Positions 1 through 17,100 of a DNA stretch of 41,310 bases are shown in pieces (position 1 is the first letter of the stretch; every line of letters begins with the position of its first letter). Source of the DNA: Mariprofundaceae bacterium (GTDB taxonomy: Bacteria; Pseudomonadota; Zetaproteobacteria; Mariprofundales; Mariprofundaceae); NCBI GenBank assembly GCA_030950905.1, contig JAUZQQ010000011.1, positions 1-41,310 on the forward strand. Direction: 5' to 3'. The notes beneath the pieces were generated by a model that made no database searches, was not told the DNA's origin, and saw only the letters and a program-made list of their open reading frames with translations. Position numbers and translations under genes: made by a program.

Positions 1-974
1 ACCAGCCCAAAAGGATCCACCAATGTTGTTGCTGCCGTTGTATCCATACCATCGCAACGATCTGTATAAACAGCCCTTAATTGCGAAGCGCCAGACACCG
101 ATATTGCGCCATTGTCACGAACAACCGCAACACCAACAACCGAAGGTATTTGTGCCGTGAATATGCCCGTGTCGATGCCTGTTTCTGTCAATGTAAGGGT
201 TTCGTTATCTGCCGTAACATTATCGCTCAGTATTATGGTAACAGATTGCGCGGTATAAACGTCTGTATTTTGGTCGCTGTCTTGTATTTTTAACCAAATC
301 GCTTGCCCCGCATGGTAAACACGGACGGCTTGCAGTTGTTGCGTTTGGGTGTTCATCTGCATAAATTCAATACGTGAAAGCGTACGCCCTTGGACAATAA
401 ATTGATTGCTTTGCGCGCTTATACCCGCTATGCCATTGGCGTTAAAACTTGCTTGTATCACTTGCGTACCCACAGGCAAGGCATTGTTCAAGCGCAAGGA
501 TGCTGTTAAAGCAATGCTTGCGCCTGCTGCTAAAGGTTGCGACAATACAAAACGAATGCTGCCATTTAACAAGGGTGTAATCGTGTATTGTGCTGCTGCA
601 TTTTGCGCACTAAGTCTACCATTGCTTGGTGGCAACAATTCAACAACACCCTGTGTTAGCGGGTTAATACCTGTGTTTCGTACCGTAATGGTTAGATGTG
701 CCACTGCCCCACCAACGATGCATGTATTGGTCGGCGTTGTACTGATCAATAAGGAAGCACGTTCAAAATTCCTGCCAAGAGCACGTATGTTGACGCTGCT
801 TTGCAGTTGTACACGCGCTACATTTGCAGTAGACGAATACAACATGGTCGCGGTATTGGTAATGATTTGTGCCTGCACGGTTTGCGCCAACAGAAGGCAC
901 AGTATTGTGCTGATAACACAGCAAAGGCCAGACGCAAAGCGTCCAGCCCATGGGGGGGAGGGTGGTTGGCGCAT
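1..974 (-). CDS. Secreted DUF11-like surface protein, partial (C-terminus beyond left edge)
   Basis: About 324 codons are visible, with no stop before the window edge. The N-terminus is a Sec-type signal peptide: a basic start, a hydrophobic run around residues 17-30, and a probable cleavage after VQA. The mature protein begins with IITNTATMLY, the same signature that opens the three neighbouring paralogues. Residues of about 85-200 resemble a DUF11/CARDB-like beta sandwich (LTITVRNTGINPL). The region after that (VWLK-type start, SVTIILSDN..) looks like a second Ig-like fold. The ATG lies 7 nt after the stop of the upstream gene and no good Shine-Dalgarno is visible, so translation is probably coupled to the preceding gene. 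The reading frame is supported by continuity and the signal peptide. The function is unknown; an extracellular structural or adhesive role is an inference from the fold type. Confidence 0.75.
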   Translation of the reverse strand, partial: MRQPPSPPWAGRFASGLCCVISTILCLLLAQTVQAQIITNTATMLYSSTANVARVQLQSSVNIRALGRNFERASLLISTTPTNTCIVGGAVAHLTITVRNTGINPLTQGVVELLPPSNGRLSAQNAAAQYTITPLLNGSIRFVLSQPLAAGASIALTASLRLNNALPVGTQVIQASFNANGIAGISAQSNQFIVQGRTLSRIEFMQMNTQTQQLQAVRVYHAGQAIWLKIQDSDQNTDVYTAQSVTIILSDNVTADNETLTLTETGIDTGIFTAQIPSVVGVAVVRDNGAISVSGASQLRAVYTDRCDGMDTTAATTLVDPFGL

Positions 975-981
975 AACGCGC

Positions 982-2094
982 TTAATCAATGGTGACCTGG
1001 AACTCCACTGACACTTCCGCTGCCAAGGCAGCAGTTGCGGCAATGGTTCCAGCCGCCTGACCTGTGCTATTCACTGCTAGTCCACCAGCCTGCACCAACG
1101 GCGTTGTGCCATTAATATCGGCAACGGGCGTTAATACAGCCGTGGTCACATGAGGACCATCGGTGTCGATACGTGTTGAATTGGCGACATAGGTCGTAAA
1201 AATAGGTATGGCATCTTGGAACACGACACCGTTGATGGTTGTTGCCATGGGAATGATGGTTAGCAACCGGTAGGTGATGGTGTTACCTGTGCCTACATTG
1301 GGCGTGGCTTGCGTAAAAGCACCACCATTGACACTGACCCACTTTTGAAAGGCGATGTGCAAAACAGTCATGCGCCCTGTCGCTGCTGCTGAGATCTGAT
1401 TGTTGCTTGAGCTTGCAGTTACAGTCACATCATTAATACCTTGGGTAGCACCAGCAGCAACAAGCCCCATGTTTTGGGCGACCGTAAACACTGCTTGCTC
1501 AGCCACCAAAGTACCGAGAACAAGCGCCGTTGGCACATGGGTGGTCAAGGTAATGGTGCTGTTGCCCGCAGCATTATCTATAACCGTTGCAACCGTATAG
1601 GTTTGACCCAGCATAACAATGGTGTCACCCGATGTGATCCCATTGACTTGACCATCGGCAACCCGATCAGAAGGAACGGTTAATGTGTTGCTGCCAGCGA
1701 CCATTGCCACAGCCAATGCAGTTGCACCCAAAGGAATAAAAGCAACACTGGCCACTGGTGTGCCGTTGATTGTCACATTGCTGGCAATATTTGTCGGTGC
1801 GTTGATGGTGTAATTATCAGGGCCATTGGCATTGGCAGTGATGGTATATTCAAGGGTTCCCGTTTGATTTTCTGCAATGGTCACATTCGCTGCGACCACG
1901 GTAACCGTAGGTGCTGCCGTTACCAGCGATACCCTAACATCAACACTGGCTAAAATAGGAGAAGCAAGACCCGTGTAGGTCATCGTTGCTGTATTGGTAA
2001 TCAAAGCGTTCGCTGGCGCGACAGCATGTGCTATTTCGGCACTCATGCAGATGAGCGCCATAAACGCGAGTGTTTTGATTGTCTTTAAGCACAT
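982..2094 (-). CDS. Secreted DUF11-like surface protein (370 aa)
   Basis: It starts with a signal peptide (MCLKTIKTLAFMALICM.., cleavage near AHA). The family signature follows: ITNTATMTYTG, then a TAAPTV block, then a repeat core reading YTITANANGPDNYTI. The middle carries a VNGITSGDTI..GQTYTV segment also found in the paralogue at 3513-4754. The C-terminal half is a DUF11-type module (IPIFTTYVANSTRID) ending in the beta strand FQVTID. It is rich in Thr, Val and Ala, and its only cysteines are in the signal peptide, as expected for a secreted beta-rich protein. The ATG follows a GAGGAAT stretch. It has its own promoter with an activator-like palindrome (2132-2180), and the partial gene at the left edge follows it by 7 nt. 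The role is unknown; a surface or matrix component is plausible. Confidence 0.85.
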   Translation of the reverse strand: MCLKTIKTLAFMALICMSAEIAHAVAPANALITNTATMTYTGLASPILASVDVRVSLVTAAPTVTVVAANVTIAENQTGTLEYTITANANGPDNYTINAPTNIASNVTINGTPVASVAFIPLGATALAVAMVAGSNTLTVPSDRVADGQVNGITSGDTIVMLGQTYTVATVIDNAAGNSTITLTTHVPTALVLGTLVAEQAVFTVAQNMGLVAAGATQGINDVTVTASSSNNQISAAATGRMTVLHIAFQKWVSVNGGAFTQATPNVGTGNTITYRLLTIIPMATTINGVVFQDAIPIFTTYVANSTRIDTDGPHVTTAVLTPVADINGTTPLVQAGGLAVNSTGQAAGTIAATAALAAEVSVEFQVTID

Positions 2095-2131
2095 GGGAAT
2101 ATTCCTCTTTTATACTACTGCATGTATACAA

Positions 2132-2180
2132 CAACGTGATAATAGACGATGGCATGCGATAAAGCCGTGACTTTTGCCAC
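2132..2180 (-). promoter_or_regulatory. Promoter with CRP/FNR-like palindrome at -41.5
   Basis: On the minus strand GTGGCAAAAGTCAC (2180-2167) is an imperfect inverted repeat of GTGRC-N4-GYCAC form. It is followed after exactly 22 nt by TATTAT (2144-2139), a -10 box candidate. Counting the box as -12 to -7 puts the start site near 2132 and the palindrome centre at -41.5, the class II activator position of CRP/FNR-type regulators. The same 14-mer with the same 22-nt spacing occurs at 5358-5406. No good -35 hexamer is seen, consistent with activator dependence. Confidence 0.6.
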
Positions 2181-2234
2181 GAAAAAACAAACAGAATAAA
2201 CAGTAGCGGCAGGGCGTGTGCTTTGCCTCTACTG
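2181..2234 (-). terminator. Rho-independent terminator after the 2242-3420 gene
   Basis: Just after the stop of the 392-residue DUF11-like gene, the minus strand has CAGTAGAGGCA (2234-2224) pairing with TGCCGCTACTG (2211-2201) with one mismatch. A T-rich tract follows (TTTATTCTGTTTGTTTTTT, 2200-2182). It lies immediately upstream of the activator palindrome of the next gene, so the next gene is probably transcribed from its own promoter. Confidence 0.65.
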
Positions 2235-2241
2235 CTAGCCA

Positions 2242-3420
2242 TTAGTTCAATGTTACCCGAAAAATAACCACTGCACTGGTACCTGCATTGATCACGCCTG
2301 CACCCGCACCTGCGCTATTGATTTGCAATCCAGCATTGGCATTGGTTAATGGCAAGGTAGACGCTGCACCATCGGGAACGGCGACACCATTAAGTGTTGT
2401 GCTGCCTACAACATAGCTGGTAAAGGCAGGCACCTCATCCTTTAGCAGATTGCCCGTGGCATTGCTTGCGCCTGTGGTCTCTGTGGCTGTTAAGCGGTAT
2501 TCCAATGTATCACCTGCTTGTGCATTGACATTGGCTGAGGCAAAGACTGCTGCGCCTTGGGTAATATTTCGCACCTCTTTGACCAAGCTCACGCTGGTAG
2601 ATAACACTGTCGTAATTGTTTGGTTGGCACTTGCGGCACTTGTTGCATAGGTTACAGCACCACCACCATTGGCAATGGTTTGGGTGGCTGTGGTTGAACC
2701 TGTCAAGTTCACTGTATGGCTACCATTGGCACCAGGTACACTGGGGGATGTTGCCGTAACCACCACGGTGAAGGTTTGCACTTCACCCAATTGCGTACCA
2801 GCAGGGACAGAGCCTGCGGTAATGACTGGCGAAGCACCAACCGCTGTCAGTGACACGGCTGTTGCTGTCTCTGCGGTGGTTGTATTGCCTGTGGTGCTGG
2901 CCACTGTGCCTGCTGTAATAGCACCAACTGTATACAGCTTACCCCCCAGCAATACTTGGTCGCCAACGGCAAGTTGTACTTCTGAACCCGCAGGGATGTA
3001 AACAATACCCGCTGTTGAAGCCTGGCTGGTGATTGAACCTGCCAACACCAAACTGCTGCTTATTCCACCAGTACCATTGACATTGAGTGCTGCAGCACCT
3101 GTAACACCAGCATTCGCTAAAGCCGCTGTGAAACTTAAGGTATCAGCACCATTGGCATTGTTGCTTACCGTGTAAGTGTAGGTGAACGATTGATTGGCAC
3201 TGACATTATTCGCCACAGAATTTACGGTGATGGTCGGTGCTGCGGCAATGGTGACTGCAGAAACATCGACAGATGCTGTGACCGTGCCACCCGCAAAGGT
3301 CAAGGTCGCTGCATTGTGGATCGTTGCCCCACCTGCGGTAATCACTGCCGTGGCCACCGTTGGCAGCATGAATGCGGCAAGCGCCAACAAGGGCAGTGTT
3401 AAACGTTTTGAAACATGCAT
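2242..3420 (-). CDS. Secreted DUF11-like surface protein (392 aa)
   Basis: The start chosen is the ATG at 3420, because AGGAG lies 6 nt upstream; an in-frame extension to 3450 has no such site. The signal peptide is MHVSKRLTLPLLALAAFMLP.. with cleavage near ATA. The mature protein begins with the family motif ATIHNAATLTFAGG. Next come IAAAPTITV and a YTYTVSNNANGADTLSF block matching its paralogues. A VGDQVLLGGKLYTV segment and a C-terminal DUF11-type module (PAFTSYVVGSTTLNG) follow, and the protein ends in IFRVTLN. It has no cysteine. A terminator lies both before and after the gene, so it may depend on read-through or on a weak local promoter (a TATAAA box sits just upstream of the Shine-Dalgarno). 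The function is unknown. Confidence 0.86.
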   Translation of the reverse strand: MHVSKRLTLPLLALAAFMLPTVATAVITAGGATIHNAATLTFAGGTVTASVDVSAVTIAAAPTITVNSVANNVSANQSFTYTYTVSNNANGADTLSFTAALANAGVTGAAALNVNGTGGISSSLVLAGSITSQASTAGIVYIPAGSEVQLAVGDQVLLGGKLYTVGAITAGTVASTTGNTTTAETATAVSLTAVGASPVITAGSVPAGTQLGEVQTFTVVVTATSPSVPGANGSHTVNLTGSTTATQTIANGGGAVTYATSAASANQTITTVLSTSVSLVKEVRNITQGAAVFASANVNAQAGDTLEYRLTATETTGASNATGNLLKDEVPAFTSYVVGSTTLNGVAVPDGAASTLPLTNANAGLQINSAGAGAGVINAGTSAVVIFRVTLN

Positions 3421-3452
3421 GATGAACTCCTTTTTATAGTATGGTAACACAG

Positions 3453-3493
3453 TAAAATAAAAATGGCTGCGGAGTTACAAACCAGGCAGCCAT
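3453..3493 (-). terminator. Rho-independent terminator after the 3513-4754 gene
   Basis: The minus strand reads ATGGCTGC (3493-3486), a 15-nt loop, GCAGCCAT (3470-3463), then TTTTTATTTTA. This is a perfect 8-bp stem plus a T-tract, 20 nt after the stop codon. It should cut the transcript of the two upstream genes (4816-5298 and 3513-4754) or attenuate read-through into 2242-3420. Confidence 0.7.
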
Positions 3494-3512
3494 TACGCCG
3501 TGTGATTAAAGC

Positions 3513-4754
3513 TTAATCAACTGTTACAGAAAATGTAACATGACTGACTTTTCCAGCAGGCAACGTGCCGCCTGTACCGCCTGCATATGCACCAGAGCCA
3601 GTTCCACCTGAACCAGCATAGATTGTTATCTCAGTGCTTGTTGCATTAAGATCACCAGGATCAACATTTAACGCATCACTTAATCCTACAAACCCTGTAC
3701 CTTCTCCTGTGTATGGATCAAGAACCATACTGGCTGCCACATAGGTGGTATAAGCAGGAATAGGATCGGTCACAATCACACCCGTGGCATCGCCTGCACC
3801 TGTGTTGGTTATGATGATTGCATAACCAATGGTTTCAGTCGGTTTACCAATGATGCCAGCGGGATAATAGGTTGTAGTATTAACAACAACCCCCGTACCT
3901 GTACCAGCAACCGCTGTTGTTAAGTTTGCAGAGTATTTATCCACTTGCAGGCTAGGACCTGAAATAGTGGTAAGTGTCGTATCTGTTGTTGGGTTCGCAC
4001 CATCGGTTACGGTCAATACAATACTGTGGGTACCATCTCCCACACCTGCCAACGTACCAACGGCAACAGCCATATAAATAACTGTTTGCTCTTCAACCAA
4101 TGTGCCAGCAGTTAATGCTGCAACTGTACCGTTACCATTTACGGTGATGGTTGAGGTTGCTACAGAATTAAGACCACCCGCATCCGTAACAGAAGCCACG
4201 GTGAAGATTACGCCACCAATGGATACCGTATCACCAGCAATAATACCATTAACCGAAGCATCAGCCGTTTGATCTGCTGGAACTGTAATGACTGTTGTAC
4301 CTGCTGCTGCAATAGTTACATTGGTGTAGACATCCGATGCACCCAACGTAACGGTTCCGCCTGCAATCAGGGTGGTTAAGCCCAAATCCGAATAAAAATC
4401 AACAGTAGGAGCGCCAATGTTGGTGTCCGTTGAAGCAGCCGTTAAGGTCACAATATCCGAACCATTTGCGTTGGAAGTAATGGTGTAAGCATAGCTAACG
4501 CTGGTGCCTGTGGTGGTTCCTTGATCTACTGGTGCAGAAACAGTGGGTGCTGCAGCAACGAGATCAACAATCACGTAGTTGGTGGCTGTTACGCTGGTGG
4601 TGAAACCTGCGCCATCACCATAAGAAACGGTCACTACGTTTTTAAGCGTTGACTGCGCCGCAGTCACGGCGTGCGCTGTTTGCGGGGCGGCAAGCAGCGT
4701 TGCCACAACAGCGAGTGTTGCAGCACCTCGTATTAAATTTTTTAAAATTTTCAT
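3513..4754 (-). CDS. Secreted DUF11-like surface protein (413 aa)
   Basis: The ATG is preceded by AGAGGAG. The signal peptide MKILKNLIRGAATLAVVATL.. ends at AHA. The mature start is STLKNVVTVSYGDG, a variant of the family motif, followed by VAAAPTVSAP and YAYTITSNANGSDIVTL. A VNGIIAGDTVSIGGVIFTV segment aligns by eye with the same segment in the 370-residue paralogue. The C-terminal third is a clear DUF11 module: IITNTGAGDATGVIVTDPIP, then AYTTYVAASMVLDP, ending HVTFSVTVD. It lies 61 nt downstream of the 160-residue member and probably shares its promoter, with a strong terminator behind it. I infer an extracellular beta-sandwich structural protein; nothing in the sequence indicates an enzyme. 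Confidence 0.87.
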   Translation of the reverse strand: MKILKNLIRGAATLAVVATLLAAPQTAHAVTAAQSTLKNVVTVSYGDGAGFTTSVTATNYVIVDLVAAAPTVSAPVDQGTTTGTSVSYAYTITSNANGSDIVTLTAASTDTNIGAPTVDFYSDLGLTTLIAGGTVTLGASDVYTNVTIAAAGTTVITVPADQTADASVNGIIAGDTVSIGGVIFTVASVTDAGGLNSVATSTITVNGNGTVAALTAGTLVEEQTVIYMAVAVGTLAGVGDGTHSIVLTVTDGANPTTDTTLTTISGPSLQVDKYSANLTTAVAGTGTGVVVNTTTYYPAGIIGKPTETIGYAIIITNTGAGDATGVIVTDPIPAYTTYVAASMVLDPYTGEGTGFVGLSDALNVDPGDLNATSTEITIYAGSGGTGSGAYAGGTGGTLPAGKVSHVTFSVTVD

Positions 4755-4815
4755 TTCACACTCCTCTTTTTTTTCAAAAATAAGGCCGAAGCCACCAACA
4801 AAACGCTGGATTTAA

Positions 4816-5298
4816 TCATTGAACACGTACTTGAAAGCTTGCCTCACCAGATTTACCAGCAGGGATTTCTTGCACTGTCCAACGAATATGGGTGTATTGC
4901 TCGGGACTGGCAACACGCTTTTCAGTTTTGCCCTTGCCTATATCAACTTGGTAGGTCAATAGACTTGCTTTTTTGTAGTGCTTGCCACCATCAATAGAAA
5001 AATCAATCGTGGCACCAGGGCCAAAAGCAGAACCGTCAATGTACAGGGTATTGTCAGGAATAGGATTAACCAACGCTGCACCGACAGCCACTGCGTCACC
5101 CTTGTTGGTATAATGCAACTGATAAATTAATATGCCACCAGGTGTTACATCTTTGGCTTCCATCAGTTTTACGATTTCTTTGCCATTTTCTTTGACGACA
5201 ACTTTCTGCTTTGCATCCACCGTGATAAGAACTTCTGGTTTAGCCCATGCCATGAACGGCAAGGTAAGTAAAAAAGTAAAGATCAGTATTTTACGCAT
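4816..5298 (-). CDS. Small secreted DUF11-like protein (160 aa)
   Basis: The ATG at 5298 is preferred over the in-frame ATG at 5337 because AGAAGG lies about 9 nt upstream of it and a compact signal peptide starts there (RKILIFTFLLTLPFMAWA, cleavage after AWA). The mature part is a single DUF11-type module: GGILIYQLHYTNKGDAVA, then NPIPDNTLYIDGSA, then FSIDGGKHYKKASLL, ending ASFQVRVQ. The FSIDGGKHY segment is typical of single-module periplasmic or secreted DUF11 proteins. It is the first gene of the minus-strand array, behind the activator-type promoter at 5358-5406. Being lysine-rich it differs from the Thr/Ala-rich paralogues and may be an accessory or periplasmic partner; that is speculation. 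Confidence 0.85.
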   Translation of the reverse strand: MRKILIFTFLLTLPFMAWAKPEVLITVDAKQKVVVKENGKEIVKLMEAKDVTPGGILIYQLHYTNKGDAVAVGAALVNPIPDNTLYIDGSAFGPGATIDFSIDGGKHYKKASLLTYQVDIGKGKTEKRVASPEQYTHIRWTVQEIPAGKSGEASFQVRVQ

Positions 5299-5357
5299 GG
5301 TAAACGCCCTTCTTAGAAAATAGTTAAGTCGCTTCATAAGTTATGAACAAGCAATTA

Positions 5358-5406
5358 GTGTGCCATAATAGGAGAAAAAGAATAGAATGTATGTGACTTT
5401 TGCCAC
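5358..5406 (-). promoter_or_regulatory. Promoter with CRP/FNR-like palindrome at -41.5
   Basis: The minus strand carries GTGGCAAAAGTCAC (5406-5393), then 22 nt, then TATTAT (5370-5365). The 14-mer and the spacing are identical to those at 2132-2180, while the 22-nt spacers themselves differ in sequence, which argues for selection on the two elements rather than recent duplication. The predicted start site is near 5358, giving a leader of about 59 nt to the ATG at 5298. Confidence 0.62.
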
Positions 5407-5610
5407 CAGTATCTCACATTAATTGGCAAAAAACGAATGGTATTCTACGAACTAAAAATAAAAAACACAACAGTAGCAAAGAATTTACTTGGGGGCTTGT
5501 GCTGATTTCGCGTTATTAAATAAGACTTTTACCTATTAGGCGATAGGTTTATTGTGGTTAAGAATTGCCCTTCAACAGGGAAGGATCCCGATCTATAGGA
5601 AGGAACCTAC
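5407..5610. other. Intergenic stretch between DUF11 array promoter and aas-like gene
   Basis: The whole gap 5299-5610 (312 nt) holds no convincing gene. Its left part is the promoter and leader of the DUF11 array. The rest is AT-rich and contains a small inverted repeat, ACCTAT-N6-ATAGGT, at 5531-5548. This is not followed by a T-run on the minus strand, so it is not a clear terminator for the aas-like gene. Confidence 0.5.
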
Positions 5611-7857
5611 TCAACGTCCGTGCGCAGCGTGGGTGCCTGTTTTGGTGAGTATGTTGTCATGGGTAACAATTTTAGCCTGTGCTGCATCAGAATCAGCAAC
5701 ACGCATAATGCGAAGGACCATGGCATGAACTTCTGGGTAATTCACTTTTCCTGTACCCATCAATGGAATCGCATCAACATGGTATAGAATGCGGGGAACT
5801 TGAATTTCACTCATGCCTTTTTCTTTTGCTTTGTCTTGCAATTCTTTGCGGTTTGGGTCTGGGTACATGGTCAACAAAATCAACTGCTCGCCTTTTTTGG
5901 CATCACTGATTGAAACTATAGCGTGTGCTTCTTCTGGCCAGCAATCGGATACCAATTCTTCACTGGCAGCAAGCGAAACCATTTCGCCTGCGATTTTTGC
6001 AAAGCGTTTAACGCGCCCTTGAATAAACAAAAAGCCTTCATCATCAATACGAACAATATCACCCGTATCGTACCAGCCACGTTCCGGCGGTGTTAAACGA
6101 CCCAGTCTGCTGCTTAATAAATAGCCCGCCATTATATTGGGTCCTTTGACCAATAAGCGACCAGCGCCACGGATGCCTTGTACACCAACCAATCGGGATT
6201 GAATGCTGGGCAACAATCGACCAACGCTGCCTTTTTTGTAATACAATGGTGTGTTGACAGAAAGCACAGGGCTGGTCTCGGTTGCACCATAACCTTCAAA
6301 GATACGAATACCGAATTTCTCCATCCATAACTCGCGGGTTTCATCTTGCAGTTTTTCTGCACCTGCGACCACATAACGCAAAGAATAAAAATCATAAGGG
6401 TGGGCATGTTTTCCATAACCTGCAAGAAACACATTGGTTCCAAACAATACCGTGGCATTTAAATCATAAGCTTCTTCGGGGATTACTTTGTAATGCAGGG
6501 GTGAAGGGTACAAAAACATCCGCATACCATTAAGCAAGGAGTTCATCGCTCCAGCCGTTAAGCCAAACGAATGAAACAACGGCAAAGCATTAAGGCACAC
6601 ATCAGCAGGGGTAAAGTTCGCCCGTGCTGCCATTTGCGCAACATTAGCCAAAACATTTTTATGCGATAATGCCACCCCTTTGGGTGAGCCTTCAGAACCT
6701 GATGTGAATAAAATAACAGCATAATCTTGTGAGCCAACACTGTTGATGTGACGGTGTAAGGTAAGACGCGGCATATAAGCACAAGCAAGGGCTTTTAACT
6801 TTCGCCCCAGTGTAGCCCGAGGTTTGATATCTTCTAAATAAATAACCGTAGCATATTTTTCTAAGGCGGCAACACGCTCGTGCAAATCGCCAGCTTCGAC
6901 AAATTTATGGGACGTGATCACGGTAGAAACTTCTGCTGTACGAATAGCAGACAACAAAGAAGAAGGCCCCATGGTGTAATTGAGCATAGTCGGCACATAA
7001 CCGCGACTGTGCAGCGCAAAAAATGAAACAATCACGGCTGACACATTGGGCAATAACAGACCAATATGCGCGCCCTGTTTATCATCCTTTAAAAAAGGTG
7101 CCATCAAATCAGCCAGTAAAAATGAACGGGTAAACAATTGGCGGTAACTAAGTGGGTTGCGCTCAACATCTTCAACGATCAAATGCTTGAACCCATGCGT
7201 TCGTGCGGCCTCTAGCAAGGCATCCCAAATGCGGCAGCGGTAGGGGGTAGACTCAAAAATCATTTCTGACATAATATCGGCTAGAATATTGCCCGCTTTT
7301 TCCCGACGCTGGCGAGGGGTCAGCCCTTCAGGGATGTTTAACCCTCTGGCAGGCAACACAGTCAAGCGGATTTGCGGGAACCAACGCAGACGCGCTTGTC
7401 CTTTGAGGTAAGAAAAACGGGTGTACTGCGCACCATCAATGCGCACAGGAACAATTTTTGCGCCCGCCTTGTCGGCTGCCATGCCAGGACCTGCGTAAAT
7501 TTTCATCAATGAGCCCGTGGCAGTAATGCGCCCTTCGGGAAAAATCATCACCCGGTTGTTTTCTTTGAGGTGAGTGATCAAGCTTTTCATCGCCATGGGG
7601 TCATTATTATTCATGGGAAACAGCTTAATAAAAGGTTTAATTAATGGCATCCACCATGTTTTCATGAAGGTGTTGTGAATAGCAAAACTAATGTCGTCAC
7701 CCAAAAACAAACCAAGCAATACGCCATCAAGCAATGAGGTATGGTTGGCGACAATAAGCACGCGCTCGCCAGCACTGTCTAAATTATCCATACCTTCTAT
7801 TTTAAGTCGGTAAGCCAGTTTAAAACAGGTACGGATGATCCAAACAAAGAACCGCAT
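5611..7857 (-). CDS. aas: Bifunctional acyltransferase / acyl-ACP synthetase (Aas-like)
   Basis: 748 residues in two enzymatic halves. The N-terminal PlsC-type acyltransferase (about 15-190) shows the NHTSLLD box (catalytic H39 and D44) and FPEGRIT (106-112). The C-terminal AMP-binding ligase (about 210-730) shows the P-loop-like signature LFTSGSEGSPKG near residues 382-393, FEGYGATETSP, and WYDTGDI. This layout matches Aas, which in the E. coli family re-acylates lyso-phosphatidylethanolamine at the inner membrane; length is close to E. coli Aas (719). The start has AAGGGG 6 nt upstream. Flanking genes are unrelated surface proteins, so a link to an acylated product is possible but unproven. 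An alternative is a closely related acyl-CoA/ACP ligase-acyltransferase fusion with another lyso-lipid substrate. Confidence 0.88.
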   Translation of the reverse strand: MRFFVWIIRTCFKLAYRLKIEGMDNLDSAGERVLIVANHTSLLDGVLLGLFLGDDISFAIHNTFMKTWWMPLIKPFIKLFPMNNNDPMAMKSLITHLKENNRVMIFPEGRITATGSLMKIYAGPGMAADKAGAKIVPVRIDGAQYTRFSYLKGQARLRWFPQIRLTVLPARGLNIPEGLTPRQRREKAGNILADIMSEMIFESTPYRCRIWDALLEAARTHGFKHLIVEDVERNPLSYRQLFTRSFLLADLMAPFLKDDKQGAHIGLLLPNVSAVIVSFFALHSRGYVPTMLNYTMGPSSLLSAIRTAEVSTVITSHKFVEAGDLHERVAALEKYATVIYLEDIKPRATLGRKLKALACAYMPRLTLHRHINSVGSQDYAVILFTSGSEGSPKGVALSHKNVLANVAQMAARANFTPADVCLNALPLFHSFGLTAGAMNSLLNGMRMFLYPSPLHYKVIPEEAYDLNATVLFGTNVFLAGYGKHAHPYDFYSLRYVVAGAEKLQDETRELWMEKFGIRIFEGYGATETSPVLSVNTPLYYKKGSVGRLLPSIQSRLVGVQGIRGAGRLLVKGPNIMAGYLLSSRLGRLTPPERGWYDTGDIVRIDDEGFLFIQGRVKRFAKIAGEMVSLAASEELVSDCWPEEAHAIVSISDAKKGEQLILLTMYPDPNRKELQDKAKEKGMSEIQVPRILYHVDAIPLMGTGKVNYPEVHAMVLRIMRVADSDAAQAKIVTHDNILTKTGTHAAHGR

Positions 7858-8082
7858 TTAATTCCCCCCTTTTCAGCTTAAAAATAAACAATGCAGAAAA
7901 ATACGCCGTAAGCATGCTTTATCTTCAGTCTTAAATCAATCAATAACGATGCTTAAAATCCCTTTGTTGCTTTCGCCCCATGCTTGTTTCTTCCTTTTTT
8001 ACCCGTAAAAACAAATTGTGATTGATAGGCCTATTTCCTAGGGTTAAAAAAGAAAAAATAAATATCGCCCTTGTTTTTTTAT

Positions 8083-8110
8083 TGCTAGCCCATGCTTTTT
8101 TGGCTATGGT
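8083..8110 (+). promoter_or_regulatory. Candidate promoter of the giant surface-protein gene
   Basis: TTGCTA (8083-8088) and TATGGT (8105-8110) are separated by 16 nt, each matching 4 of 6 consensus bases, about 30 nt before the GTG start. The 284-nt divergent gap 7858-8141 is otherwise AT-rich, with a 10-bp palindrome ATAGGCCTAT at 8025-8034. It lacks the GTGGC-N4-GTCAC site found upstream of the small DUF11 genes. Confidence 0.3.
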
Positions 8111-8141
8111 AAGCCTTTTTAAGCTAGGAGATTAATCTATC

Positions 8142-11100
8142 GTGGATTTGCGTTATTTGGCACGGCATCATTTTATTTTTGTTTTCATCATGCTATTGAT
8201 TTTGGTAGTCACTGTTTTTTCGCATACAGCCTTGGCACATAACGTAGGCCAAGCGCAAACTTCAAAATTCTTTGACCCTGACACCGTGCAAATGTTAAAA
8301 GACCGTGCTTCTGGCGCGGCTTCAGGTGGTCCTGGCTTGCGCCAAGGTGATATTATCTCATACATTGTTGAATCTGTACCCGCGCCGAATGGTGCGACAC
8401 TCGGGGCTGCGGGTTATATCTTGGACTATATCCCACCGGGTACAGAAGTCGTCGGTGCATCATTTGTCAACAAGATTCCTGATCCAACGAAATACGATGG
8501 CTGGGCATACATTGATGGTTCTATGCCCTACCCAGGTATTCTTGCTGATGGTTTTGGTCCTCGTGGACTGGGTGGCTATTTACCACCTTTTGGCGAAGGC
8601 TGTTTGGCTTGTGGTGTGCAAGATACAGGGGTTTTTTACTCCACTGATGCACGCACTGCACGATTGGTCATTCCCTACAACATCACCACTTGCACCAAAG
8701 CAAAATTATCGGGTACGCAATTGGCATTTTTGGTCTACAACCAATGGGATTACGATCAATTCATGGGTTTTGGTAATACCAAGAACTGTGCGCCTATCGC
8801 ACCAGCACTTTACCCAGACCCTGCGATACTAACGGGTGGTAGCGGACGGGGTAATCCTCCCCTGGTGGATTTAAGCGGCCTTGGCACAGGGCCTTGGGCA
8901 GGGCTTGCTTCGCCAGTGGCGGGTGCCGATACATTTTACAAAAACGATTTTAATCCCTTGGGTGATGGCAATGGTGCAATCAATTCACCGCTTGATTTTT
9001 CTGGTCAAGGGCCTTGGCATCGTATTCAACACCCTGGCTCATTGATGGGTAGCAGCGGCATTGTTTCACCTGTATTGGTATCAGGCACGGACACCATCAC
9101 AGGTGTACCCGCCACGGGCGGCTGGGCACTTTCTTCTGCCAATCCTTTGCCGCGCACCACCAATACCCTTCGCTTTGCCATTGGCGAACGTGTGGTTGGT
9201 GACTTGGAGCATGTACGTGTCAAATTGCGTATTTATGATTTGCCAGCGTTTGGCGCAGGCTCGCCTGCACTTTGCATACCCACCACCATGCCAGGGGGCA
9301 ATTGTGCCATTGACCCCTATACCAACCTATCGTCAGTCTTTGGTGCTGATGCCTCGGGTGGGGCACAGAATGGCAAAGATCACGCTTATGCCTACTTAGG
9401 GCCGTCACAAGCAAACAATAATGCGCAATTGGTCACCACCAAGGCGGTGGTTGCGGTGGCAGCAGCCGTTACTGGGCCGTGGATTGCATCCGATGGTGCT
9501 TTTTTGCAAATTGGTCAATTTGTTAAGTACCGACTGACCTATTTAAATGCTGCTTCAGCCACCTTAACCAACGTCACCATCAGCGATCTTATTGACCCAA
9601 GCTCGGCTACTTACGCAGGATCTGCTTCTACGGGTAATCCTTTTTTGGGTATCCCTACGGTATTAGGAAGCACCGTATCGTGGCCGATTATTGCCATATT
9701 GATGCCAGGCGGGGGTGGCAATGTTGAGTTGATTGTGCAAATCACGGGTGCGGGTGTGGGTGGCATCAGCAGCAATCAAATTTTTGGTACGGCAACAGCA
9801 CCAGATGGTGCAACCATTGTCGATTCTTATGCCGCAGCCGTATCAACCATTGGCACATCAAGTGTGCCGTTGATTAACCTGAGCAAAACAGCGACCCCAA
9901 ACGCTGTAGCCACGGGGCAAGCAATTCACTACACGATTGTATTAAACAACCCAGGTGGCGCGATCACTGCCGCTGCACGAGGCAACAACAACGCTGCAAA
10001 AGGCAATGTCTACCCCGCCACTGCCAGTGCTACGGCAGGGTTGATCATCGGCGATAATTTGCCAAAAACCTTGCTGGTTAACGATGTGACCTACAATGCA
10101 GCAGCATCAACGTTGATTACCTTTACCGATACCACAACAGGCATTCAGTACCCCTTGGCGGCAGGAGATTTTGCCGTTGATGTTGTCACCCGACCTGGTG
10201 ATGTTTTTTGGGATGTTCTTACCTTCCCAGCCTTGCACCCGCGTGCTGGGCTGGCTTTTGATTTTGTTAATACGTCGATACAAATTGATTTTTACGCAAC
10301 GGCGGCAGTTACAGCATTACCCGGTGTCTATTACAACAATATTGAAGCTTATGTTGGCGATGCTTTTTCAGGCAAAGACATCACCAAACTGGCCATTAAT
10401 CAAGCACCTGTCACCATTGGTGCAGCGCCCTCTTTTGCCAATTCAACCAAAATTGCCGTGGATCTTAACGGGGGAATACTCAAACCAGGCGAAGATGTTC
10501 GTTATGATTTCACACTGATCAACAATGGCCAAGCTGCCACCACCACCCTTAGCATGATCGACCCTATTCCCAATGGCGCAAATTTTGTGCTTGGTTCCGT
10601 GCTTGCGCCGAGCGCAACCATAAGCTATTTGGATCAATACAGCGCGGTTTATACCCCCGTAGGCACTGCCGGCACGGTTGATCCTTACGTTCGTTTTGTC
10701 AGATTAAACTATACCATTATTGCCATTGGTGCGTCCGTTACACCGTCGCTAACCGTGCGTGTGCCCATACCGAATATTAATGGCTTGCAACTCCTTAACC
10801 AAGGGGTTATGGACGTGTATGCAGGTATCAATTATTCGCGTTTTGTTACCGATGATCCCAATCAAACAGGCATACAAGATGTGACAAAAATCTCAGTCAC
10901 TGCTAAACCAGATTTTACTACCACCACCAAAACTGTGTTGGTGAATGGTGCGGCATCTACTCAAACCGCACCCGGTGATGCACTTCAGTACACCATTAAT
11001 TTTATCGACGCGGGTACATCCAGTAATGGTAGTACCAATGTAACGGTCAAAGACACGGTCGATTTAACCCGATTGGAAAATACCGTACTGGCTGTAACAC

Positions 11101-14100
11101 CTGTTGGTTGGGGCGTGCTTGGCCCTGATCCTTATACTGGCTTGATTGTGTGGACGGCAGCAACATTACCCCATGGTGCAAGCGCGACGTTTGGTTTTAC
11201 TGCGGATGTAAAACTCAATGTGGTGAATGGTGATAGTGTCAACAATGCGGTGGTGATTGCCTCAGATCAGACTGCCAATATCACCATCAATGCGCCCACG
11301 TTGACCGTCCCTACGACCAAAGTAACGGGTACGGTGTTTGACGATCAAAATAGCGATGGCACGCAACAGGCTGGCACAGAGGGGGGCGTGCAAAATGTTA
11401 CCGTGGCCTTGCGCGTACCTGGTTTTGCTGGCGATATTATTATTGCCAGCACCGATGCCAATGGTTATTACCAACTGATTGCTCCCATAGCTGGTGATTG
11501 GTATGTGCAAGTCACCGATGATTTTAGTGTGCTCACAGGGCGGGGTTTAACCACTGCCAACAACCCTATCGCCATCAACCTGCCCAATGGCATTACCACC
11601 ACCAATCAAGACTTTGGTTATGCCCCTTTGCCTACGCCTGCGGTCATCAGTGGCACGGTTTTTAACGATGCTGATGCCAATGGTGTTCAAAACGGGGGTG
11701 AAGGCGGGCATAACGGTGTGACGCTTACACTCAAAAATGCAGCCAATGTTATTGTTGGTAGCCGTACGACCAATGCCAGTGGTGCGTATGATTTCTCTGG
11801 TTTAAGTGCGGGCAATTACACCTTAGAAATCAGCGATACGTCAGGGATTCTTATCGACTATTATTTAACCACAGGGCTTGTTTCACCCTATTCTGTGGTC
11901 AACCTTACGACACTGGAAACCCGCACCGTTGATTTTGGCTATAACCTTGGCAAGACAATTGGAGACTTGGTGTTTAATGACCTTGATTCATCGGGCACAT
12001 GGACGGCAGGGGACTCGCCCATTGCTGGCATTGTGATGGAATTGCGACCACCTGGTGGCGGCGTAGGCACAGCCATAAAGTCAGCCATTACCGACAGTTA
12101 TGGCTTTTACCAAATCCACGGCATTGCACCGGGGTTTTATGATGTTTACGCCGATGCAACGGGCATTCTTGCAGGTTTCACACTGACGACGGGAATGCCA
12201 TCGCCCACCCCCTCGACGATCAGTGGCGGCGGAACAACAGGGCTTTTTGACTATGGTTATGTTGCCCTACCAGTCATCAATGTTACCAAGATCACCAGCA
12301 CGGGTGTGGTTGGTTTTTACGATGCTGCCGAATACACCATCACCGTCACCAATACAGGGGGGGCAGCAGCCAACTTTGTAGTCAGAGATATTCTACCCAC
12401 CACCACGCCGCCGCTTACTGTGCCGCCGTATACCATTTCTTCCAGTGGTTTCCTCTATTTAAGCACCAACAGTGTACGACTAAACGGTACAGCATTTACC
12501 ATCCCTGTGATGCCGACGCTCTACGGCACACAACCTACATGGTCGGGTTTTACCATGCCTGCGGCTTCCACATTGAGCATTCAGTTCACTGCATTTTCAG
12601 GTGCCAACGAAGGGGTCAACTACAATGGTGTACAAACCGAGTACAACAACACAGGTGTACCGCCAGCAACCGTGCAAAACTTTCCCGATCTGGCGCGCAT
12701 TCTTATCTCTGACGTTGGTGCTGTAACCAAGCGTGTAGCGGCCATCAATGGTGTATTATGGGCAGGAGCAGGAACCCCTGTTGTGGCAGGCAACGATGTG
12801 ATCAGCTATGAAGTGCAAATCACCAATACCCCAGCGGCACTGGCACATGCCATCCGTGCCATGCGCGATTATTTGCCGACAGGTTTTACCTACAAAGCAG
12901 GCACAGCGTTTGTTACCGATGCCATCAATTACCCCACAGGGGTAGCAGTGATTGGAACCCAACTTGGCAAGCAACTGGACTTTGCCATGCCCTTACCAAA
13001 CCCCTCTACGGGAGCGAGCTACCCTGGTACGGTCACGCTTAATTTTAATGCCTATGCTGCAACGGGTACCATGGGTACATTTACCGATAATGCAGGCATG
13101 TTGGTTTCTGTGAATGCACTGCCTGCTATTGATGTTTATTCTGGTAATACTGCAGCGGTTACATTAACCCAGTTCCGTATTGGCGACACCGTATTTTTTG
13201 ACAATGATGCCAATGCTTCGCTTACCGTGGGCGATACTTATGCTGCTGGCGTTACGCTTGAGCTACGGCCGAGTGGCGGCGGTGTTGGTTCAGCCATTGC
13301 CAGCACGGCAACCGACAACAACGGTTATTATGGTTTTTTAATCAATACTGCGGGTACTTACGATGTGGTGGTGACCGATACGGGCGGCATCTTGTTGGGG
13401 CATGCTTCTTCAACTGGGGGCAAGACGCAAACAGCCACGATTAATGCCCTTAACAGCAATATAAAAACCGTAGATTTTGGTTATATCCCACCTGCACTAT
13501 CGGCCGTGATCGAAGGCACGGTGTTTGCTGATTACAACAACAACACCACAAAAGATGCAAGCGAGCCAGGTATTGCCGCAGCAACCCTCGGTTTGTACAA
13601 TCTTTTTGGTACCTTGATCAACACTTACAGCACCCCCGCAGGTGGGACGTTTCGCTTTGCAGGCATTGCTGGTGGACTTTATCAAATCAATGTCATTACC
13701 CCACCTGTGGGTTATGGCGGTACTTCAATCGCCCTGCCATTAAGCGTTAATGTTGCCGATGGTACAAGCGCAACGGGTAACAATATTGGCTATCTACCGT
13801 TTGGTTCATTATCGGGCAATCTATTTAGCGATACCAACGGCGATGGCATCAAACAAGCAGGCGAGACAAGCAGTTTTGCTGGTGTGATCGTGCAACGTTA
13901 CAACGCGGCGATGGTGCTGATCGACAGTTACGCCAGTGATGCCAATGGCGATTATATATTCCCATTGATTGCCGCTGCTGATTATTATGTGCAGGTACAA
14001 GCAGGGACTTCACCTGTTGGTTACGGTGCAAGTACCACCCAGCCTATTGCAGTAACGGTGCAGAATGCGGTGATCAACAGCGGCAACAACATCGGCTATC

Positions 14101-17100
14101 AACCCAACGGCAATGTTGCGGGTATAATTTTTTTAGACGCCAATGCAAACGGCAACAAAGACGCAGGCGAGAACACTATTTTTGCCAATTTGGTGGTTGA
14201 TCGGTATACCATTGGCATGGGGTTTATTGATTCGTATACCGCTGATGTGAATGGGCAGTTTCAATTTAATTTACTGCCAGCCGGTGATTACTATGTGCAG
14301 GTGCGCATAGACCCTGTGGGTTATGGCCCAACCACCGTGCAAGCGCGTAAAGTCACAGCGGTAAATGGCATCACCAGCACGGGTAATGATTTGGGTTATC
14401 AAATATTTGGTAGTATTGGTGGTGCGGTGTTTTCTGATGCCAACGGCAATGCCATCATGGATGGTGGCGAAGCTGGCTTAACTGGGGTGGTGGTGGATCG
14501 TTACAGCGGCAGCCTTTATATTGACAGTTACACCGCCGATGCCAGCGGCGCGTTTCAATTTGGGCCCACCAACGCAGGCAGCTACGATCTTTATGCACAA
14601 ATCCCAACAGGTTATGGCGCAACAACAGGGCAACCGTTGATAGCGATCGCAACATTGGGCGGTAACAGTACGGGCAATAATATTGGCTTTCAACAAGCCG
14701 CAACTATTAGTGGCAAGGTGTTTGCCGATGTGAACAACTCAGGGGCATTTGATGCAGGCGATGCATGGCTTGCTGGTGCTACCGTCTATTTGAAAAAAGC
14801 AGGCGTTACAGTCGATACCTATACCACCACGGCAGGCGGTGCTTATATTTTTACAGGGCTATTGCTTGGTTCCAATCCCAGCGTTGTTTACACGGTTGAT
14901 GTAGACCAAACCTTAACCCCCATCAACAATGCCACCTTAACCACAGCCAATGATCCTTCCACCGTCACGGTGACCATCGGCAGCACCAATACCGTTGCTG
15001 ATATTGGCTATCTGATTCAAGGTTCTATTTCTGGCACGGTGTATGAAGACAAAAATGCTACCCTGATCTTTGATACCACGCCGCTCCCTGCAGATACCGC
15101 TTTAACGGGAGCCGTGGTCAATTTGTATGATAGTACCATGGCATTGATCACTGCAACGAACAGTGCTGTGGACGGAAGTTTTTCGTTTGCAGGCCTGATT
15201 GGTGCTGATTATTACGTGGAAGTGATAACACCCGCCACCTATTCTGCTGTTGCGCCAACCATTACTGCCCCTGCAACCCAGCCTATTCGCGCTATCACCC
15301 TTGCTTCTGGCACGGTGCTTACGGGGCAAAACTTTGGTTTTAGCTTACCCCCGAACTTGGTGGTCAGTAAAACAACGGCTTCTCCGTTTGTCTCCAGAGA
15401 TGTGCCCATCACCTACACCATCACGGTAAGCAATACAGGTGGGACGGCGAACAATGTTGTGGTCACCGATTGGGTGCCTAATCTTACTTTTGTGGGGTGG
15501 TTGGGGGTTCCTGTGCCAACGCCCTCGCCCGAAGGGGTGATCACCCCTTCGGTGACAGCAACCCAGTTATGGTTTAATGGTATACTCGTTAGCGCAACGC
15601 TGCCACTTGCACCGTACACGCAGACCACTGTGGCCAATACCACCACCGCTTGGTCGATGGCTCCAACGGGGTTCACCTTAAACAATGGTGATGTATTAAA
15701 ATTTATTTTCACCGTTGATTCGCTCGCCAATGGAACAGAGGGAACGTTTTTTAATGCTTTGCAAGTGGACTACCTCAATGGTGCGATTCCTGTCACCAAC
15801 TGGTACGCCGATATCAATACCGTTACCGCGACGCGAACCTACTTCCCCGATAAACAGGTGGTTGCAATTAATGGTGTTGCTTGGGGCGGTGGTGTGCCAA
15901 CGATTGATGTGGGTGATACCGTGACCTATGCGGTAACCATCACCAATTTACGTGGACGCGGACGCATCAACCGCGATGAAATCGCAGCCGTTTCGCTAAC
16001 CGATACATTACCCTTGGGTTTTAAATATGTGCTCGGCTCCACCAAGGTAATCTCGCCTGGCAATGGCATTACAATACTTACACCACTTGCTGTTGATGGT
16101 GTGGTTTTACCTGTTGCATCGGCATTGGTGCAAGAAGTAATCACCTACACCTTTAATGCTGGCGCAATTCCAGCAAAAGGTGGATTGCCCGTCGTTGGTG
16201 ATTCTATGATTACAGGCCCTAGCCTTAACGATACCGCGACCTTGCAATTTGATGCCTATGCCTACGATGCACTCACCCCCAATGCACCCTTGCCCGGCAC
16301 CTATACCAACCGTGCTGCCCCATCGGCGAATCGGCTAGGCAAAGGTGCAGGCATCGTGGAAACCATTGTCGGTGCAGCCGTCACTGTCTCGGCCAATGCA
16401 CATGTTTTTGGTACGGTGTTCCATGAATTAACGCTGGACGGTGTCTACAATGCAGCAACATTGGATACAGCGTTTAATGGCATTACCGTAGAACTGCAAC
16501 CCGCAGGCGGTGGTCTAGCCATTGATAGCTACACCACAGCAAGCAATGGTTTGTTTGATCTCATAGCCCCCGGTGCAGGCAGTTATCAGGTGGTGATTAC
16601 AGATACCGCAGGCATTTTGACGGGGTTTATCAACAGCATTGCACCTGCGGTGATGCCCATAACATTAAGCAATGGGCAACGGTTATTGGGGCAAGATTAT
16701 GGCTATGTGTTGAGCGCAGCACCAGCGACTATCAGTGGCACAATTTTTACCGATGCCAATGCCGATGGTATTCAAAATGGTGCAGATGCAGGTATCGCCA
16801 GTGCAACGGTGAATTTGACCTCGCTGGTTGGAACCATACTCGCCACGGCATTGACCAATGCTACGGGACTCTACACGTTCAACAATTTGGCAGCAGGCAG
16901 TTACAAAATCGACGTGCTAAATAGTTCATTGCCTTTAATTGGACGCTACAACACCCCCGCAGCCGCCCCCGTTGACCCCTACACCTTGACGATTGCAGCA
17001 GGTAATACCAGCAGCCAAAGTTTTGGCTGGGCACCCGGTGCGCAATTTATTGGTACGGTGTTTGATGATAACAACGATGGTATTTTCACCTTGGGTGAAC

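Follow-up and report, generated by a model that had tools for sequence, protein, structure and literature searches.

Two identical 14-bp palindromes were found ahead of surface-protein genes in the window (the whole stretch of DNA analysed, 41,310 nt, contig C13 of the genome assembly of a marine, iron-oxidising member of the Mariprofundaceae). Both are quite probably class II sites of a cAMP-dependent CRP-type activator, which would drive the operon of genes 1–3 from one site and gene 4 from the other; judged from sequence, the surface proteins are likely to be switched by cyclic AMP. The four genes are consecutive and encode exported proteins of the DUF11/B_ant_repeat kind. Repeat proteins of the DUF11 type occur widely and are little understood.

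All four genes lie on the minus strand. Gene 1 (4816..5298) encodes a small exported DUF11-type protein that scored just under the cut-off of TIGR01451. Its likely start is the ATG at 5298, with the ribosome site AAGAAGGG; the listed ORF begins at 5337. Gene 2 (3513..4754, exported DUF11 protein) and gene 3 (2242..3420, exported DUF11-type protein, ORF listed from a GTG at 3450) form a putative operon with gene 1. The exported protein of gene 4 (982..2094) is homologous to those of genes 2 and 3 and has no family-model match of its own. A terminator-like hairpin with a U-rich tail (2181..2246, minus strand, −20.7 kcal/mol, z −2.53) separates genes 3 and 4; it was missing from the list of the strict terminator scan. 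The palindrome of gene 4 sits directly after this hairpin, as expected of an independent promoter. In the sister species G003, the order of the four genes was kept, with 64–71% identity. An acyltransferase + AMP-binding fusion (Aas-like, 5611–7857, minus strand) lies between the DUF11 operon and a giant gene (8142–19151, plus strand), whose 3669-aa product contains 12 SdrD_B stretches and DUF11 domains. In five other genomes (G004, G069, G072, G073 and G076), a frame of ~2000 aa was located directly 5′ of the small DUF11 gene.

The palindrome GTGGCAAAAGTCAC occurs on the minus strand ahead of gene 1 (5393..5406) and again ahead of gene 4 (2167..2180), matching 8/10 and 7/10 bases of the CRP consensus TGTGA-N6-TCACA, respectively, with flanks counted. 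The first-pass annotation had described it as followed by 22 nt and TATTAT, and this was exact to the base at both places (2180–2167 and 5406–5393). The two 22-nt spacers are unrelated to each other. TATTAT is the putative sigma-70 −10 hexamer of gene 1 (5365..5370, minus strand, predicted start ~5358) and the putative −10 hexamer of gene 4 (2139..2144, minus strand, predicted start ~2132). If this assignment is right, the palindrome centre would lie at −41.5. The class II placement proposed earlier is supported: 22 nt separate the core from the putative −10 box at both sites, and the placement recurs in relatives. An ordinary sigma-70 −35/−10 promoter was found at neither place by a promoter scan, and no Rfam elements were detected within positions 1–9000 of the window.

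The assembled genome (1.60 Mb, 81.75% complete) was searched for further copies. The exact 14-nt word was present only at the two promoters. Likewise, only these two sites were recovered by a scan for GTGRC-N4-GYCAC-N(20–24)-TATNAT, and the reversed control pattern gave 0 matches. Among the best 20 matches with up to two mismatches, the 18 other than the two sites were all within ORFs, and none of these near copies had a good −10 box at 21–23 nt on inspection. A wider regulon defined by GTGRC-N4-GYCAC and TATNAT was rejected for this genome, only the two known sites being present. Several of the matches to the same pattern in relatives had one coding-like sequence in common (GTGACCAT[TC]GCCACCAATATGGC...). 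The looser core GTGR-N6-YCAC was not enriched in the genome (108 versus 100 in the control), which counts against the CRP reading. So does the identity of the palindromes at all 14 bases, including six that CRP reads weakly, for which the CRP consensus alone would be insufficient. The identity of all 14 bases, the middle included, could stem from a short stretch having been copied recently or from a narrower preference of the host's own CRP.

A 14-bp geometry is common to sites of CRP (GTGA-N6-TCAC) and of FNR (TTGAT-N4-ATCAA). It is therefore the letters of the half-sites, not the 4-nt centre, that separate them, and the earlier description of an FNR-type centre with CRP-like outer bases draws no distinction. 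FNR half-sites of the TTGAT-N4-ATCAA type were found neither in the window, where the half-sites are GTGGC/GTGAC, nor in G003, where GTGAT is present; the half-sites are those of CRP. Upstream of gene 1 in G003, a perfect site, TGTGATAATCATCACA (10/10 bases of TGTGA-N6-TCACA), was found at the orthologous place, followed by TATAAT 21 nt past the 14-bp core. The promoter reads TGTGATAATCATCACA-TACGCAGGTTTATACATTGC-TATAATGGCAC in G003 and GGTGGCAAAAGTCACA-TACATTCTATTCTTTTTCTCC-TATTATGGCAC in the window: the palindrome, the ATAC flank, the −10 box and GGCAC were kept and the spacer had diverged. Among relatives, the −10 box of gene 1 is TATAAT in G003 and TATTAT in L190. For the gene 4 palindrome, no counterpart was seen at the corresponding position in G003; the best match there was 7/10 with the wrong spacing. 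The earlier proposal of a regulator that switches on the DUF11 proteins is therefore not supported as a single rule. Because of this absence, the identity of the 14-mers and their spacing carry the whole of the gene 4 half of the argument.

Homologous DUF11 operons were then compared by scanning the 300 nt 5′ of the first gene of each operon (n = 44, operon heads chosen by script). At least 9/10 CRP consensus bases were present in 18/44 regions (shuffle control: mean 0.33, maximum 3; reversed motif: 1), and a perfect 10/10 site in 8/44 (shuffle mean 0.01); as the loci are partly non-independent, these counts are indicative. The assignment of the sites to the CRP/FNR superfamily made in the first-pass annotation is supported, and such sites do stand before homologous operons. 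According to the taxa given in the records, the 18 regions belong mostly to Zetaproteobacteria and Gammaproteobacteria. The window's own sites (8/10 and 7/10) fall below the threshold of at least 9/10 and outside the 18, which weighs against the CRP reading. No site of at least 9/10 was found in the 36 lower-scoring loci L209–L244 (Campylobacterota, alpha-, beta- and some gammaproteobacteria, cyanobacteria and others), which serve as a comparison and not as a matched control because their homologs are more distant as well. When 18 chosen sites were profiled, similarity to TATAAT was maximal at a distance of exactly 22 nt past the core; these sites include the window's two and that of G003, to which part of the peak is due. 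The hexamer at 22 nt is TATTAT in L190, AATTAT in L199 and TAGGAT in L196. A recognisable CRP site was absent from some homologous operons of the same family, and a −10 box at 22 nt was missing after several strong CRP sites; both observations also speak against the CRP reading. Over 37 genomes of the family, TGTGA-N6-TCACA was enriched (142 versus 30 in the control, summed from the table).

Tandem CRP-type sites 23 bp apart were seen in several distant operons (upstream of L190, L192, L193, L199, L202 and L208). A recurring word resembling ACAGTCG/ACAGTTG was located further downstream in several of these tandem-site loci (L190–L208 set). Ahead of the giant gene, L158 and L161 each have CRP-type sites with TATAAG/CATAAG at a distance of 29 nt, a spacing that fits neither of the two classes, I and II.

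The genome was searched for a matching regulator. It encodes 23 cyclic-nucleotide-binding domains (PF00027), many paired within one frame, and a single HTH_Crp_2 protein was detected, a 218-aa product with a cNMP_binding domain on contig C77. The best PDB matches of this protein were to E. coli CRP (E 4e-10). Its recognition helix (CQRETVSR) and pocket residues (GEL..RTA) agree with CRP in a comparison with E. coli CRP and FNR as references, and the PDB alignment is in agreement. Because its score was far under the cut-off of the NCBIfam CRP equivalog, the protein is called CRP-type here, its identity as CRP being unproven. Orthologs were present in G001, G002 and G003. A second CRP-type paralogue, nearer to the E. 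coli protein, is also present in these three genomes and was not detected in the incomplete assembly that contains the window; either paralogue may be the acting CRP. Class III cyclases are encoded in this genome and were found in 11/11 genomes checked; in G020 and G033 such a cyclase gene lies next to the ortholog of the C77 gene in convergent orientation. A CRP-family gene beside the DUF11 operon was considered and rejected, since a tblastn search with the C77 protein, covering the loci collected by then, returned only its own locus. At another locus of the genome (L076, G000:C99, 156–4211), two genes run divergently from a gene 1 paralog (~46% identical). One encodes a double cyclic-nucleotide-binding protein and the other a 732-aa fusion of receiver, class III cyclase and calcineurin-like phosphoesterase, possibly a cyclase and a phosphodiesterase in one chain.

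A feature of the gene 1 promoter was missed by the first-pass annotation. A perfect sigma-54 −24/−12 element, TGGCACACTAATTGCT (5350..5365, minus strand, predicted start ~5339), overlaps the end of the −10 box, and its counterpart in G003, TGGCACGATATTTGCT, is also perfect. Both contain TGGCAC-N5-TTGC with GG and GC 10 nt apart. Strict matches numbered 6 in 347 kb of family sequence on both strands, and two of the six were those of window gene 1 and G003. RpoN is encoded in this genome (C35:75913–76386), as in 8/9 genomes, together with three strongly scoring sigma-54 activators. No such element was found at gene 4, where the best match (16 of 21.5) was far upstream. Sigma-54 as a common rule for the homologous operons was rejected, as only the window and G003 matched in context. 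GGCA also follows the −10 box in L190 and L199, both of which have no −12 box, so part of the sigma-54 match may be coincidence. The chances that the element at gene 1 is in use are put at about even, and a sigma-70 and a sigma-54 promoter may overlap at gene 1. More tentatively, gene 1 could carry a compact dual promoter in this Mariprofundaceae genus, in which the −10 box of a class II CRP/sigma-70 promoter shares one base with, and directly adjoins, the sigma-54 −24 element, so that one stretch of DNA is contested or shared by cAMP-CRP and RpoN. This would come in addition to control of DUF11 surface operons by CRP, recurring across Zeta- and Gammaproteobacteria.

Activation by cAMP-CRP from class II sites is the best reading because of the sites in related operons, the peak of −10 similarity at 22 nt, the CRP-like regulator and the class III cyclases. 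Cyclic AMP would rise through the class III cyclases; CRP bound at −41.5, substituting for a −35 box, would recruit sigma-70 RNA polymerase to TATTAT; and transcription would increase for the DUF11 operon (genes 1–3) and, separately, for gene 4. The gene 1 operon would possibly be read from two starts, via the overlapping sigma-54 promoter. It is unlikely that the gene 1 promoter is chiefly an RpoN promoter with an incidental TATTAT, in which the palindrome, ~−60 from the sigma-54 start, would be bound upstream by a sigma-54 activator or would be a modulating, perhaps inhibiting, CRP site. Such a promoter would fit the perfect TGGCAC-N5-TTGCT in the window and G003 despite diverged spacers, the rarity of strict matches and the presence of RpoN and its activators, and inhibition of a sigma-54 promoter by CRP-cAMP is possible in E. 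coli (PMC3900584). However, palindrome and spacing are the same at gene 4, where the sigma-54 element is absent, no −12 box is present in the distant operons that have CRP sites, and the GGCA of L190 and L199 indicates that part of the match may predate any use of sigma-54.

The dedicated CRP/FNR-family regulator suggested in the first-pass annotation, sensing oxygen or redox state and specific to DUF11 promoters, is very improbable. The confinement of the exact word to the two promoters would suit it, some relatives have other superfamily members with FNR-like features, and the MAG is only ~82% complete; yet the sites of relatives are CRP consensus sites, the sole regulator found has cyclic-nucleotide-pocket residues and a CRP-like recognition helix, and TGTGA-N6-TCACA is enriched across the family genomes as for a general CRP. 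Least probable is that the shared 14-mer arose by chance or is the relic of a duplication, without a function in regulation. Apart from the giant gene, the window has fifteen 14-mers that recur within it (overlapping ones counted) and the gene 4 site was not found in G003, but the longest word common to the two upstream regions, 14 nt, was reached by 0/3000 pairs of dinucleotide shuffles, the distance to TATTAT is equal at both places and the gene 1 site is conserved in G003.

A conserved CRP-type site before DUF11 operons would provide a first testable signal, cAMP, for the production of these proteins, and the overlapping sigma-54 element leads to the precise prediction of two start sites, which could be mapped. 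No report of cAMP/CRP control of DUF11 genes in iron-oxidising Zetaproteobacteria was found in a limited literature search: class II CRP-type promoters are a well-known kind, and it is their proposed link to DUF11 operons that was not found reported. Like class II CRP promoters of the E. coli galP1 type, those of the window have the palindrome at −41.5, no −35 element and a −10 box 22 nt past the core; they differ in a weaker consensus (one GTGG half), in two identical 14-bp cores within one locus and in that activation is predicted. The 14-bp geometry and the −41.5 position are shared with FNR/ANR class II promoters (TTGAT-N4-ATCAA), whereas the half-sites are GTGR instead of TTGAT and the detected regulator is CRP-like. 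Finally, the perfect −24/−12 element of gene 1 with a CRP-type site upstream recalls sigma-54 promoters (TGGCAC-N5-TTGCW) near CRP, such as Pu in E. coli (PMC3900584); in contrast to Pu, the sigma-54 element of gene 1 overlaps a putative sigma-70 −10 box.
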